From the IMG/VR virus record IMGVR_UViG_3300028418_000025, positions 1 through 25,699 of that record: a stretch of DNA of 25,699 bases, one strand, 5' to 3'. The position numbers were made by a program, and so were the translations under genes. How positions within the stretch are numbered: position 1 is the stretch's first letter; each line of letters opens with the position of its first letter. Below the pieces are notes generated by a model. The model was not told where the DNA came from. It did not search any database and saw only the letters and a list, made by a program, of their open reading frames with translations. Of the stretch, positions 1 to 19,309 are shown in pieces. This DNA is from a virus.

Positions 1-3000
1 TTCTTTTGATATGTCTCTTTTTTGAGCTGGAGTAGTAGTATTTAAAGTTTTTTCAGTAGATACAAAATTACCATCACCATCTACAAAACCTTGGTCTGGT
101 TGTTTCAAAGGAACTATAGCGCCATCACTGAATACTATATCAGTAGCTATCCAGCTTGGATTTTTACCTTTAGTAAAATAACCTTTTATTTCTTTTACAC
201 CAGGTATTGTAGATAAATTATTATCTGCAAAGTCTTTTTTGTTATCATATGTTTGATACCTTTTATATCTACTAGAAGCACCTGCAGAAGACTGATGACC
301 TGTCATCCACTTAAGACTAATAGTAATAGCGTCTATTGCTGCTGATTTTTCATCAAAACCATTTTTTAAATTTTTATCATATATATTATTAGTAAATCCA
401 GTAGATAATTCTCTTTGTTTCTTTTGACCTTTAGATCCTTTAGAAAACAACTGTGTAAAAGCTTTAGTCAAATTAAATATTTTACTTAAAGTAGTAGAAG
501 AACTATTTAAACCAATACCTTGAAATAAAAACTCTGCTGTATTAACATCTAGCAATAAACTTTCTTTATACAAATATCTTTTTAAAGGTTGGCTAATTTC
601 ATTAGCAAACTTTTTTAGTGTTTTTAATCCTTCTTCACCAGTAAAATTAACATTGTTAGGACTGTTATAAATTGTTTTCTTTAAAGCATTAAATATATTT
701 GCTGGTGTAGGGTTGACATCTAAATCTTTAAAGTCTTTAATAAAATCATCTGCTTTAGAACTAAATTCTGATCTTTGATCTGTATCTAAAGCTTCACTAA
801 ATTTAACAATATCTTGAGATCTTTGCTCTCCAGCTGTTTGATCAAGCACATCTTGCATATTACTCATTACATTATCTATGTAAAACGATGTAACTTCATT
901 ACTAGTCATACCTGTTCTATCAGATAAGTCAGCTATAAAATCTGGATCAGTACTTAATTTAAACAATTCTGTTTTAGCAAGTTCTTTAGCTATAGGCTTA
1001 ATTAAAGATCTTTGTCTTTCTATTAATGTAGTATAACCTCCTCTAGTAAAGTACTTAGCAAATTCTTGTGGATCTGGTTTTTGAACTTCAAATATTTGTT
1101 TTCTATAATTAGTTACTTTACCTTCATCACTGACTTTCTTAATATCTTCTCTACCTACTTCTTTTAATTTGAATATATTACTCCAAGCTTTACTTTTAGC
1201 TTTTTGCTTTATTAAGTCAATAGGCATAGCTCCTATTATAGTATCCCTGTTGGCATTTATAAAATCAACATATTGTTTTGGAGCAAAACCTAATACGCTT
1301 CTAGTTATAGGACCCATCTCAGCTTTAATAACTTTAGTTATTTCAGTTTCTATAGCATTATTAATTTCTTGAGTTACTGTTGTAGCTGTAACACCTTTTG
1401 TTATAGCTAATTTTTTCAATCTTTTAGAAACAATACTTCTAACTTCATCAAATATTTCAGGAGTAACTATAGACAACTCTTTAAATGATTTTAAATCTCT
1501 ACCTTCTGTAGCTACATCAGCATCTTTAACAACACCTCTTCTAAAACTAGTGACATCCATTTCCACGTCAAACTTGCCGGCTTTAGCGTCTTCTATTTGC
1601 TTGGCTGTTTCACTGTCTATAGACATATCGTTAGTTATAAGATCATTTGGTAAATAACCTAATATTCTTTGGTTAAGCTTAGCATTTATCCATTGAGCCA
1701 ATTCTATATCTTTAAACTTAGACATGTCTCTATTTTCATAAGCTTTAACTAATCCAGGTATACCAGATCCACCAGTAGCCATATCAGAAACAACATCTTC
1801 CAATATCTCAGTGCTAAATCCATCAAAATCTCTTGGTCTTATAATTGTTTTACCAACCCTAAACCCTTTGTTAAGTCTTGAAGTTATAAAGTTTCTATAT
1901 AAATTACCAATCTCAAGACCTTTGTCTTTTATTGATTTATCACTATTATACACGTTGTCAACTTCAGTAAATAATTTCCTATCTGTATTTGATAAATTAC
2001 TTGTTTCTGAAGCTTTAACCTTAGATGCTGCTATTCTATTTTGAGTTGTAGTTTCGCTAATAGATATAACTTTACCTTTTTTATTTACTACACTAAATTT
2101 ATCTTGAGCTTGAGCTAAGTCGGTGATACTTAAATCTCCTTCCGCTATCTTCTTACCAAAACCTAAGAAAAACTCTAATATATCTTTTTGCCCTTTAAAC
2201 TCTATATTATAATCACCATCAGACGCATTCATAAGACCATCATTCATTAGCTTACCCATTATAGCTTTAAAATTGTCCATCTTATCTAAATCGACTTTAC
2301 CTTCAGGAATTAACTCTATGAAAGAAGATATAACTTCGTCATAATCAAAATCTCCGTCTAACTCTAAGTTAGCGTTACTAGCACCCATAGCTTTTAAAGC
2401 GCTCTCTTGACCGGTGTAAACTAAATATTTTATAATTTGATCTCCTAAATTTTTAAATGCTTCAGGATTATTTTTTAATAATTTTCTACTAATAGTATGA
2501 GTGTTTTCGTGAAGTCCACTAGTAAATCTTTTGTTTTTTGTCATATTCTCTCTAACAACAAAATCTAAATTAAATCCTCCTCCAGATATAGATCCACCAT
2601 TCATTTTCCCTTTATATATAGAATTTAAAACATCTCTTCTATTATTTTGCAGATTAGCTTTTGCATCAGCGTTATTTTCTAGTTCTATAGCAACATCAAA
2701 AGCATCTCCAACTTGTTGAGCAGCTTCTTCTTTAGATTCAAAATCAATAAATGTATGACCTAATTTTTCTGACTGTTTTCTATCTTTAGCTAACTGCTTA
2801 TCCATTTGTTGCTCGAAAATTATATTATCAGCTTCTATTGCTATTTCAGAACCACTAGGATTATAATTTTGTTTAGGATTTTTTGAGTTTATATTGTTTG
2901 TTAAAAGATTTTGAGTTGCTTGATCAGTTATTTCTGTATATTTTTTTCTATTAGAATCATTTACATCTTTACCAGCTGCACTCATCATTAAAGCTCCATA

Positions 3001-7071: not shown

Positions 7072-7941
7072 TTACGCCATGTTATTGTTTTCAAACATCT
7101 CTATAGCGTCGTTATACATGTCATCTGATGCTGATTGAGCAGTCCTGTCTTCTATGAAATTTCTTTCATCTTTTTTCTTTGTTCTTTCAATTTTATTTTT
7201 TGCTCTTTTATCTTGTCTAGCTATTTTTTTTGGGCTTGGTCCAGGTGTTGGGGCTGGTAACATATCAGCAGCTGCGCCAGCTCCAGCTATAAGAGTGCTA
7301 GAGGCTCCTGCAACTGCACCCAACATAGCGTTACTAGAAGCAACGCCATAATCCATTCCCATTTGTCCAGCATTAGTGGCTAATCCAGCTAACCTATCTA
7401 ATCGAGCTATAGTTCTACCTTCTTGTCTACCATAAACATTTATTTCTTCTTTTAATGCAGCTTGTTCTAGAGACATTATTGTATTTAATTTTTGTGCTTC
7501 ACCAGCTAGGTATTGTTTTTGATTAGCTAGTTCTTGATTCTCTAATTGAGCGGCAACTTTTAACTTACTAGCAGCGGCAGATCTAGCTAATTGAGTAGCA
7601 GCCCCAGCCCCAACACCAGCTCTATTCATATTGTTTAATATATTAGCTAGAGCTTCATCAGTTTCTTCCATTTGAAGTTCTATACCAGACATTGCAACTC
7701 CTAGATTTTGATATGGGTTTAGTACATCATCTTTCATGTCTCTAATTTCATCAGACATATCTACAACCTCTTGTCTACTCATTTCTAACTCGGCTATCTC
7801 AGCATTTCTTCTTCTTTGCTCTTTCATAGCGTCTTCTTGAAGTTGTGCTAGTCTTTGTGATTCTTTGCTACCTGCAAATAACTGTGCTCCTGTTGTAAGC
7901 AGAGTTACACCACCCATTATTATTGCTGCTACTGCTCCCAT
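7072..7941 (-). CDS. Membrane-active internal virion protein, T7 gp14-like in design (289 aa)
   Basis: The first 24 residues (MGAVAAIIMGGVTLLTTGAQ and on) are hydrophobic and Gly/Ala-rich. Residues about 25-180 form a long charged, Gln/Glu/Ala-rich coiled coil. A second Ala/Gly-rich hydrophobic stretch lies near 200-227, followed by a Pro-rich linker (PAPTPGPSP) and a very basic tail with KK and RTKKK runs. This arrangement, an N-terminal hydrophobic segment then an Ala/Gln-rich coiled coil, is common in podovirus internal virion protein B (T7 gp14), which forms the outer-membrane pore during DNA ejection. The stop is 18 bp before the next ejection-type gene, and the start is 1 bp from the end of the SET-cupin gene. 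The assignment is by architecture and order, not recognised sequence identity. Confidence 0.72.
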   Translation of the reverse strand: MGAVAAIIMGGVTLLTTGAQLFAGSKESQRLAQLQEDAMKEQRRRNAEIAELEMSRQEVVDMSDEIRDMKDDVLNPYQNLGVAMSGIELQMEETDEALANILNNMNRAGVGAGAATQLARSAAASKLKVAAQLENQELANQKQYLAGEAQKLNTIMSLEQAALKEEINVYGRQEGRTIARLDRLAGLATNAGQMGMDYGVASSNAMLGAVAGASSTLIAGAGAAADMLPAPTPGPSPKKIARQDKRAKNKIERTKKKDERNFIEDRTAQSASDDMYNDAIEMFENNNMA

Positions 7942-7942
7942 A

Positions 7943-8761
7943 TTATTGTTTTTTTAATTTTAAATGTTTTTTATATTCTTCTTTATTTATAGAGAATAAT
8001 CTTTTTTCAATAGCTTTTATATCTCTACCATTATCTGGGTTTGAATGAGTGTTTACCCATATAGCGTCTTCTAACACTTCTATAATTCTTTGATCACCTT
8101 CGTTAGACTTTGTATAATAAGGTGCTTTAAAGCACTTTAAGCCATTTTTATCAGCAACTAGAACAGTTCCATGAATTAAAAACCATGAATGAGATTCATT
8201 ATGTATACAGCCTGATACAATTGTACCTTTTTTTACATCCATACGTCTAATATATACACCATTAGTAAAGTCATCAATGATTTCCATTTCTTCACTTTCT
8301 CTAAGCATATTTTTGCCATCTCCTTTAATTAAGTCATGGTCAATGTTTTCTAGTATTTTTTCTGACAACTTTCTTATAAAGTTTTCTCTTTTGTTTATTA
8401 AATTTAATTCCATTTTTTTTGTTATTGTTTTTAAATTAGTAAAGTAATTTACCAACAATTCTGTACTTTTTTTTATATTTTTTAAAGCAAAAAATTTATT
8501 ATCTTTTAAATAAACGTTAGGATCTGATGAATGATTAACATATCTACCTAATTCTGTTTTATAGTTATTATTTAAAACTTTACCTATTAAAGAATTTTTA
8601 ACATAGTTCTTAGTAGTAAAACAACCAACGCCGTGTATAGAAGATTTTTTTAACTCTATTTCCTTGTTTTCATGTTTTACTTCATGAGAATTTACAACTT
8701 CTTTAATAAATCTATCTTCAGTATAACCTATAATATTTAAAAAATCTTCGTAAGTTTTCAA
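7943..8761 (-). CDS. SET-domain (lysine methyltransferase-like) protein fused to a C-terminal cupin-like domain (272 aa)
   Basis: Residues about 35-106 look like a compact SET domain. HGVGCF at 43-48 matches the N-terminal SET motif, RYVNHSSDPN at 73-82 matches the conserved NHSxxPN S-adenosylmethionine-binding/active-site motif, and ELLVNY at 101-106 matches the GEELxxxY motif with its catalytic Tyr. SET enzymes transfer methyl groups from S-adenosylmethionine to protein lysines. A helical linker (107-162) leads to residues 163-242, which look like a cupin barrel: NGVYIRRMDVKKGT, then His187 and His191, a HGTV turn, an AP turn, and a final WVNTHS with His239. The gene starts with TTG inside a TTGA overlap with the stop of the preceding tail gene, so translation is probably coupled. 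A stop lies just upstream in this frame and the next Met is residue 117, past the SET motifs, so TTG is the only sensible start. The substrate is unknown; a virion or host protein is possible. Confidence 0.8.
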   Translation of the reverse strand: MKTYEDFLNIIGYTEDRFIKEVVNSHEVKHENKEIELKKSSIHGVGCFTTKNYVKNSLIGKVLNNNYKTELGRYVNHSSDPNVYLKDNKFFALKNIKKSTELLVNYFTNLKTITKKMELNLINKRENFIRKLSEKILENIDHDLIKGDGKNMLRESEEMEIIDDFTNGVYIRRMDVKKGTIVSGCIHNESHSWFLIHGTVLVADKNGLKCFKAPYYTKSNEGDQRIIEVLEDAIWVNTHSNPDNGRDIKAIEKRLFSINKEEYKKHLKLKKQ

Positions 8762-10605
8762 GGCATGGACGATAATACGTAATTAGAAGAAACTGAAAAT
8801 AATTGCTTTGTTCCTCCGGAGTCTGTGCTATCATCTATAGATAATTTAACTGTCATTATATAACCTTTAACACCACTCATTTTAACACCACCAATAATCT
8901 CACCTGGTCTAACAAAGCTGTTATTTATTAAATTAGCTACATAGTGATTTTCTTTTCTGTCAAAACCAACTCTAAATATTGGTTGTGTGGCTGTAGGATC
9001 TAAAGCTGTAGCTCCTGTCAATGGTGGATTAGAAGAATCATACGCACCTTCTACATAGCTTTTTATTGATTTAGTTGAGTCTTGAAATTCTGAATAAATA
9101 CCAGTTCCGTTTATATCGTCAAAACCTTCAATATCTGATAAATAAGTGTCTACTTCCCATCCATTACTTCCTTCATAACCTATTGTATTAAAGTTTTTAA
9201 CCACAGTAGGGCTAGGATTGAATATAAATTCTACAAAAGCCTCTGCTGGTTTTGAAGCTCCATAGAATTTAGTTCTATTATTAGGTGTTGTTTCGTCGTA
9301 GTGTTGGTATATTTCTGAATCAATAAATGTAAAGAAATTATTTTTTAAACTACCAAACGCATTTGGTTTGTAACTATAGAAACTTGTCCATCCATTAACT
9401 CCTTCATCAAAACCTAAAGTATCAAAATTACCGCCAGAAGAATTTAAAGGCGTGACTGGGGTTGCTATTGATCTTGGTATATTTTGTAAGGACACGGTGT
9501 AAGAAGATTGATGAGCATCCCAACCACCTAATATTTGACCTCTTTTAAACGTGACAAAATTAATTTTATTATATACACCACCAGCTCCAAAGTCAATAGC
9601 TGGAAAAAAGTTAAAATCTTGACCAATTGCAAAATCAGTTTCAAAACTAGTAACCCTAGAGTTAGTAGCCACAACTGTCCCATCTGCTTTAACTAGTTCC
9701 ATTAAAGCGCCAATATCAACTCCAGAAATACCTCCTGAAAGAGTTCCAGCACCACCACTTAGAATACGAGCTTCAGTACGCACACCAGTCATAAGTGCAG
9801 TATTAATAACTCCAGTGTAAACTTGTCTTTGATAGGTGTCAGATATAAGAGCTAAGTTGTCTCTAAAATAATCTTTCATACCATATCCTGATATTTCAGT
9901 TATACCATCTCTAGACAGTCTAAGAATTGCAGCCCTGTCTTTATCTGCAAAGTATTTCCTATAACCATAAAAAGCAAAAGACTCTGGGTTTCTACTTATA
10001 CCATACTCACCTAAGTAAGGAACATCTTGGCCAAGTACATTGACTTCACCACCAGTTTCTAATGAGCCTTGCTCACCTGAATATATAGCATTTTTGTTTA
10101 CTAAGACTTTACTTATTTTATTTTCTTGAAGAACCATTAAGTTAGAATCTTCTGCAAAAAGCTTTTGTATAGAGCCATTTAAAGGATCTAAATCTCTTAC
10201 CAATGGATCAGCTATTGAAAAAACATTAGTTTCAATAAAGCTTGTTCTAGTATTTAATAGTCCGGAATATATTAAACTATGCTTTTTGTCTGTAGCATCT
10301 AAACTTTCATTGACAACATAGGCTCTAACTCCATTTGTTATATTAGCATTGTTAAATCCACCCTTAATTCTAGACTCTTCAATAAAAAACATATTATTGT
10401 TTAGATTTTTAAAACTACCAGGTGTATTAGGTGATAAACTACTCGCAAAAGGATATGCTGGGTAACCTAGACTATTATTAGCTCTAAACCACGGTAACCC
10501 AGGCCACTGTGGTGGAAGAGGTACGGGATCAGGGCTAGCAGGAGCCGGAATTACTTTTTTCAACAAAAAGCAATTAAAATATTTTACACCAATTTTATAG
10601 CTCAT
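8758..10605 (-). CDS. Tail structural protein, probable tail hub/stabilisation component (615 aa)
   Basis: A beta-rich protein without signal peptide. It opens with a Pro-rich linker (residues about 20-35, PAPASPDPVPLPP). A conserved-looking stretch near 77-100 (ESRIKGGFNN) and another at about 197-246 (GEYGISRNPESFA, then RLSRDGITEIS) follow. It carries two copies of a motif: NFDTLGFDEGVNGW near residue 392 and NFNTIGYEGSNGW near 469. The segment after the first copy, with SFYSYKPN, NNFFTF and EIYQHY, resembles sequences I recall in tail or nozzle proteins of marine and crAss-like phages. It follows the 1510-aa tail protein after 54 bp and overlaps the SET-cupin gene by 4 bp. I infer a distal tail/nozzle role; the family is not firmly identified. 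The ATG has only AT-rich sequence upstream. Confidence 0.7.
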   Translation of the reverse strand: MSYKIGVKYFNCFLLKKVIPAPASPDPVPLPPQWPGLPWFRANNSLGYPAYPFASSLSPNTPGSFKNLNNNMFFIEESRIKGGFNNANITNGVRAYVVNESLDATDKKHSLIYSGLLNTRTSFIETNVFSIADPLVRDLDPLNGSIQKLFAEDSNLMVLQENKISKVLVNKNAIYSGEQGSLETGGEVNVLGQDVPYLGEYGISRNPESFAFYGYRKYFADKDRAAILRLSRDGITEISGYGMKDYFRDNLALISDTYQRQVYTGVINTALMTGVRTEARILSGGAGTLSGGISGVDIGALMELVKADGTVVATNSRVTSFETDFAIGQDFNFFPAIDFGAGGVYNKINFVTFKRGQILGGWDAHQSSYTVSLQNIPRSIATPVTPLNSSGGNFDTLGFDEGVNGWTSFYSYKPNAFGSLKNNFFTFIDSEIYQHYDETTPNNRTKFYGASKPAEAFVEFIFNPSPTVVKNFNTIGYEGSNGWEVDTYLSDIEGFDDINGTGIYSEFQDSTKSIKSYVEGAYDSSNPPLTGATALDPTATQPIFRVGFDRKENHYVANLINNSFVRPGEIIGGVKMSGVKGYIMTVKLSIDDSTDSGGTKQLFSVSSNYVLSSMP

Positions 10606-18737: not shown

Positions 18738-19028
18738 TTAACTAGCTACACTTGCTTGAACGTCCGCAATCGGTGAAGATAATTCCACGTCTAATGACGA
18801 GCCAGAAGCTCCATTAAGAATGTTTACACCTTTGATAACGGCATTAACATCATCTTGAGTCATAGTACCATTGGCGTCTTCTAATTGAAGTAAAATCCCA
18901 GTACTATAAGCAATCTCTAAGACTCCACTATCTTCTCTAACTGTATCAACGTTTTCAGTGGAAATCAAACCACCGAAACCTGGAACTAAAGCGGTAGCTC
19001 CAGTTGTTTTATATTTTAAATATCCCAT
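18738..19028 (-). CDS. Small capsid-associated protein, paralogue of the neighbouring 89-aa protein (96 aa)
   Basis: A small acidic protein starting MGYLKYKTTGATALVPGFGG and ending in SSPIADVQASVAS. It lines up with the 89-aa product: both begin MG-aromatic-aliphatic-K, have an I-x-x-[VE] strand, then a [YF]STGxxL strand pair, a D-rich helix, and INGASG or IEGASG followed by PI..V near the end. The two genes are 11 bp apart and lie directly behind the capsid gene, where cement, decoration or head-fibre-base proteins are common. A structural role is inferred; the family is not recognised. The terminator at 18683-18706 follows it. Confidence 0.65.
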   Translation of the reverse strand: MGYLKYKTTGATALVPGFGGLISTENVDTVREDSGVLEIAYSTGILLQLEDANGTMTQDDVNAVIKGVNILNGASGSSLDVELSSPIADVQASVAS

Positions 19029-19039
19029 AATTTATTTTT

Positions 19040-19309
19040 TTAAGTTATTTTACTTTTAGAAACACTCGTTATAGGCACGCTTAACTTTTCTGGAGCAATA
19101 CCTTCTCCTGAAGCTCCCTCAATTTTTAAAGCAGCTTTCATTATTTTTTCAGCATCTTTACTTTCAACACTTGACATAGCTACAGTGAGTATAGTCCCAG
19201 TTGAGTATTTAAACACAATGGTTGTAGCAGTTGTCGCAACGCTTATTATGTCATCTGCAGGTAATAGATCAAAAGTTCTATCAGCCTTGAATAATTTTAC
19301 AAATCCCAT
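19040..19309 (-). CDS. Small capsid-associated protein, paralogue of the neighbouring 96-aa protein (89 aa)
   Basis: It starts MGFVKLFKADRTFDLLPADD, followed by a beta-like stretch (IISVATTATTIVFKYSTGTI), a helix with KDAEKIMKAALKIEGASG, and a C-terminal strand (PITSVSKSKIT). The shared YSTGT/YSTGI and GASG segments mark it as a duplicate of the next gene. It is the first gene after the capsid gene and sits just behind a hairpin at 19330-19358, so its level may be set below that of the capsid protein. A decoration or minor head protein is likely, not proven. The ATG has an A-rich leader with no Shine-Dalgarno sequence. Confidence 0.65.
   Translation of the reverse strand: MGFVKLFKADRTFDLLPADDIISVATTATTIVFKYSTGTILTVAMSSVESKDAEKIMKAALKIEGASGEGIAPEKLSVPITSVSKSKIT

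Follow-up and report, generated by a model that had tools for sequence, protein, structure and literature searches.

The stretch of DNA analysed here (the window; 25,699 nucleotides) belongs to a marine virus that infects bacteria. The preliminary description of one of its genes had claimed a SET-domain methyltransferase fused to a cupin-like domain, and both parts were found: the SET domain by Pfam, profile search and fold, the cupin by PHROG matches and predicted fold. The gene, its parts and its neighbours are as follows.

7943..8761, minus strand: SET-cupin fusion gene, an intact open reading frame of 272 amino acids with a TTG start, assigned from its translation and Pfam/PHROG matches
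8414..8761, minus strand: SET module, residues 1–116 (Pfam SET: residues 27–106), a unit present or absent among relatives
8528..8536, minus strand: Asn-His-Ser of GRYVNHSSDPN, residues 76–78, from the alignment of homologues
8444..8446, minus strand: presumed catalytic Tyr106 of ELLVNY, from the alignment of homologues
7943..8413, minus strand: RmlC-like cupin part, residues 117–272 plus stop codon; its first codon is the ATG used as start in SET-less relatives
8758..10605, minus strand: muzzle-like tail gene, upstream (Pfam crAss_MUZ_C, 9.2e-8; PHROG 14478, 1.7e-38), overlapping the SET-cupin gene by 4 bases
7072..7941, minus strand: probable first ejection protein gene, downstream (289 aa), assigned from its position, size and hydrophobic Gly/Ala-rich N-terminus

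The four bases TTGA (8758–8761) are common to the TTG start of the fusion gene and the TGA stop of the muzzle-like gene, and the product of 7072–7941 resembles a first ejection protein; the proposed coupling to a tail gene and the proposed place directly before the ejection proteins were both borne out. The 289-aa downstream protein is 47–50% identical to its equivalents in two other viruses with the fusion (L002 and L013) and gave no PHROG match. It is followed by a protein of 434 aa and then by one that is very large and runs off the contig (ORF 1–5739, 1913 or more aa), for which no Pfam family was found. The latter contains HENTH (2497–2511, minus strand), a zinc-peptidase-like HExxH motif. 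The portal protein of the window is 41–50% identical to portals of Flavobacterium (elemo), Maribacter and uncultured spring-water podoviruses, and the similarity to the Flavobacterium and Maribacter phages makes a host among the Bacteroidota likely.

The hallmark motifs of SET enzymes on which the preliminary description relied (NHSxxPN, HGxG and ELLVNY) are all present, as HGVG (residues 43–46), GRYVNHSSDPN (72–82) and ELLVNY (101–106). The Pfam SET match over residues 27–106 has an E-value of 4.2e-7 and scores 30.8 bits at a curated cut-off of 22.4 bits. A profile of 11 SET homologues compared with PDB sequences retrieved KMT2A (7.5e-12) and vSET of PBCV-1 (7.1e-9), and the N-terminal part also matches the SET region of PHROG 34170. 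An AF2 model restricted to the SET part was confident (mean pLDDT 88.3), and its top Foldseek match in the PDB was again vSET (1.1e-5, prob 1.0, TMq 0.57), so that the predicted structure, too, agrees with a SET fold. A chance SET-like motif is ruled out by the Pfam match, the profile search and the fold.

The closest solved SET fold, vSET (A612L), is a small single-domain viral histone H3 Lys27 methyltransferase. Whereas vSET is free-standing and acts on a eukaryotic histone, the SET core of the window is shorter, fused to a cupin and encoded in a bacteriophage virion operon. Its HGVG and NHS motifs are spaced by about 27 residues, a stretch that is longer in KMT2A according to the alignments. 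The SET-I insert is absent in the alignment with KMT2A, and no Cys cluster follows Tyr106, so a cysteine-rich post-SET region is lacking. Both elements are features of eukaryotic histone enzymes and do not occur in every SET protein; vSET is likewise devoid of a cysteine-rich post-SET.

Among 25 distinct SET sequences, the second Gly of the GxG cofactor motif is present in all 25 and the first in 23, and the GRY positions vary little or not at all. In the R-x-x-N-H-S motif, R, N and H are each found in 24 of 24 homologues, with S invariant in the 11 aligned, and Glu and the Tyr at the catalytic position of ELLVNY are both conserved in 23 of 23. The NHSxxPN signature is accordingly no peculiarity of the window, its NH being as constant as GRY and the catalytic Tyr. 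Comparison of the window SET with two close copies gave dN/dS of about 0.15 (0.042/0.27 and 0.078/0.51), which indicates purifying selection at the codon level. With catalytic residues that do not vary across about 24 homologues and so low a dN/dS, the SET part is probably a catalytically active enzyme.

The C-terminal half matches PHROG 24280 (8e-19) and PHROG 12032 (3e-15), which are labelled tail fiber adhesin and short tail fiber. All top Foldseek matches of the C-terminal model are RmlC-like cupins (E about 1e-5, prob 1.0), as expected from the cupin-like C-terminus first described; the full-length model is of moderate quality only (pLDDT 62.7, about 70–78 in the cupin region). These PHROG labels are the argument for a C-terminal tail fibre or adhesin that is modified by the SET part. 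Such a role appears highly improbable: judged by its fold alone, the model is one small cupin without fibre repeats, and for a cupin of phage phiAP1 a fibre role has no experimental validation (PMC8703784). The label short tail fiber, which is widely copied, is probably wrong for this cupin family. The RmlC-like phage cupins of PHROG 12032 and 24280 share family and genomic position with the window cupin, but have no SET domain, and their fibre label is unsupported by the predicted fold. The most conserved cupin residues are Y-x-R, glycines and ED-x-W. As candidates for the metal-binding histidines of motifs 1 and 2 in cupin enzymes, the window cupin possesses H187, H191 and H239, and His occupies these positions in 61/79, 63/79 and 65/78 homologues, respectively. 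A function of the cupin as a conserved metal enzyme is unsupported, because these candidate metal ligands are replaced in about one fifth of the homologues.

A census of viral, phage and bacterial contigs yielded 92 open reading frames with a cupin and/or a SET domain (near-copies counted, window excluded), comprising 66 cupins alone, 20 cupin-SET fusions, 5 SET-cupin fusions and a single SET alone. The fusion first noticed in one genome hence recurs in 25 further reading frames, at a near-fixed place before the first ejection gene, and is seen in both orders and in different podovirus lineages; a one-off fusion or an assembly artefact is ruled out by this recurrence, even though near-copies are included in the count. 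The gene directly downstream matched an ejection profile in 68 of the 92 cases, a number that is partly circular because some of these neighbours went into the profile; a similar Gly/Ala-rich reading frame was recognised by eye in 17 more, and six lie at contig ends. PHROG independently calls the neighbour a DNA ejection protein in 7 of 10 tested cases, the remaining three being the window, L002 and L013. The exception in the census is the lone SET gene (L015, 6001–6372), which lacks a cupin and is separated by a few genes from a downstream portal-like gene that is similar in general kind to that of the window. Outside the census, the cupin of Alteromonas phage H4/4 precedes a head-tail adaptor gene. 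A genome scan with the SET profile gave no match; with the cupin it gave four loci, one being a cupin-SET in a bacterial MAG. The cupin, present in many podoviruses either alone or in one of the two fusion orders, is the core, constant part and SET the variable part.

Databases already hold phage SET proteins, namely PHROG 34170 and A0A6J5PTS6 (SET domain containing protein, uncultured phage). PHROG 34170, which includes gp30 of Rhodoferax phage P26218 and gp49 of Pseudoalteromonas phage PH1, shares with the window protein both domains and the place before the first ejection gene, but has the cupin first and SET second, and carries no function label. Cyanophage P-RSM6 (L024, 5034–5333) encodes a stand-alone compact SET protein of 99 aa (PHROG 28741) directly before a gp25-like baseplate wedge gene, so that small phage SET domains occur in another virion context as well.

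The position of the SET-cupin gene, before a gp14/gp7-like ejection gene, is that of T7 gp13 and P22 gp14. The stretch from the tail nozzle, needle or muzzle gene to the first ejection gene houses these two as well as the GNAT-like gp21 of Flavobacterium elemo phages, yet they are members of other families (PF11090, PF11039 and PHROG 17252, respectively) with no sequence relationship detected; the window protein itself did not match PF11090 or PF11039. P22 gp14 is annotated as head morphogenesis protein and Pfam calls T7 gp13 a probable scaffold protein. Together with the cupin alone as the commonest form, this would suit a cupin that serves as an assembly factor or minor virion component with SET as a non-catalytic binding module. 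The invariance of the SET catalytic residues, unneeded for mere binding, makes this explanation rather improbable.

Each of three SET-carrying viruses has a close SET-less relative. Synonymous divergence (dS) of the muzzle gene is 0.05 between the window and its SET-less partner L003 and 0.07 between L002 and L037; for L013 and L034, dS is 0.03 in the cupin and 0.45 in the muzzle. Between the window and L002, synonymous divergence is lower in SET (0.27) than in the cupin (0.89), the muzzle (1.38) or the ejection gene (1.47). Nucleotide identity in 100-base windows rises from about 0.72–0.73 before SET to 0.88–0.95 inside and drops to about 0.60 just after it, a jump at the SET borders with Fisher p values of about 1e-16 (L002) and 1e-8 (L013) when sites are treated as independent. 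The insertion point is exact, extending from the muzzle stop to the cupin's own ATG. On the cupin tree, which has many unresolved forks and also long branches, SET presence requires 9 changes (11 before removal of L109 and of L140 and L141, first counted as SET-less, all three cut at contig ends), and for the no-SET state well-supported branches alone force at least 4 changes. On the SET tree, neither the N-terminal nor the C-terminal arrangement forms one clade, which means that the fusion arose more than once or that the domain order was rearranged. These comparisons of sequences and trees indicate that SET is a mobile, dispensable module which moves as a unit into the muzzle-cupin junction.

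The SET-less L003 contains, before its cupin ATG, the spacer TTAATTAAAAACAA, which resembles the 3′ end of SET and is absent from other SET-less relatives. Read as a leftover of SET loss, it speaks against the view that SET was never present in L003; in this AT-rich DNA, the resemblance is no more than suggestive. Within the fusion gene of the window, the cupin's own ATG (8411–8413, minus strand) is still in frame after an A-rich stretch, and a cupin-only form could possibly arise by internal initiation there.

At 51 loci with a related muzzle gene, the next position is occupied by SET-cupin in two cases (besides the window), by a cupin alone in 11, by a GNAT-like gene in one, and directly by an ejection-like reading frame in about 34. 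Most close relatives and clade members thus have no gene between muzzle and ejection gene. Relatives of this GNAT-like gene (L055) occupy the corresponding place in Flavobacterium elemo phages, Maribacter phage Panino and MW202828. The L055 gene gave a weak PHROG match (0.0018) and two weak PDB matches to acetyltransferases, one of them the top match, and the depositors' annotation of MW202828 agrees; it is a probable acetyltransferase, judged by these similarities. In Sphaerotilus phage SnaR1 (L008, loci 230–667 and 8001–8432), a GNAT gene stands ahead of the connector and the T7 gp13 position is taken by a cupin, and in Alteromonas phage H4/4 (L007, 7866–8339) it is the cupin that precedes the connector, as if GNAT-type and cupin-type genes traded places.

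Modification of a neighbouring virion protein, favoured as a guess in the preliminary description, is still the leading guess, and the recurrence at one genomic position strengthens it. Tentatively, and with somewhat more doubt than confidence, we propose an optional, active, late protein-lysine methyltransferase that is carried by a cupin and most likely methylates a co-assembled virion protein, the ejection proteins being the first candidates. The protein would be expressed late, coupled to the muzzle gene. The RmlC-like cupin would provide docking or oligomerisation and bring SET to a partner made or assembled beside the ejection gene, where SET would methylate one or more lysines of a co-assembled virion protein; such methylation would tune infection rather than be essential to it. 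The cupin is regarded as the targeting part because it was joined to SET repeatedly in both orders at a near-fixed place by the ejection gene, and a compact SET in which some of the ordinary substrate groove is missing agrees with docking by an external domain. As the constant neighbour, the first ejection protein is the first-choice substrate. In SET-carrying and SET-less sister viruses, the lysines of this protein hardly differ, and therefore methylation cannot be essential and the ejection protein is not singled out as the target; the existence of near-identical SET-less viruses also argues against an essential role of SET. Against the proposed role, the cupin of most phages may work independently of SET.

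The main rival, which we consider unlikely, is that the enzyme is packaged and ejected alongside the pilot proteins and, early in infection, methylates a host protein, for example in takeover or counter-defence. Phages can inject enzymes, as T4 does with Alt, and the constant place next to the ejection genes would suit such an effector. The gp13 homologue of the T7-like phage phiPsa17, a different protein at the matching position, was however not reported among the detected virion proteins (PMC4517105). For the phages that carry the fusion, no virion proteomics was found. Somewhat less probable still is a late-made enzyme that stays out of the virion and methylates cytoplasmic proteins of the host, its operon position setting only the timing. 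Some SET enzymes do modify non-histone cytoplasmic proteins, and SET, being dispensable and patchily distributed, resembles an accessory gene, but one position recurs across podovirus lineages and in both domain orders, which suggests a tie to the neighbouring proteins.

Returning to methylation of a virion protein, a broader and more speculative idea is that short-tailed phages keep an exchangeable modification slot by the first ejection gene, filled by SET, cupin, GNAT or nothing, which might covalently tune the DNA-injection machine; the window gene would be its lysine-methylating form. The literature searched, in which few subscription journals were covered, contained no description of the two-order fusion, its position, its mobility or a swappable slot. 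Work on SET with phage virions or cyanophages and on cupins with podoviruses included nothing on a SET-cupin protein, and the literature searched did not describe methylation of lysines in phage virion proteins. Proteins at the T7 gp13 and P22 gp14 position are poorly understood, and the natural sister genomes with and without SET, together with the cultured fusion carriers PH1 and P26218, make the question directly testable.

Elsewhere in the window, two adjacent proteins of 96 and 89 aa with similar sequences are encoded behind the capsid gene (18738–19028 and 19040–19309, minus strand), a pair that may have arisen by tandem duplication.
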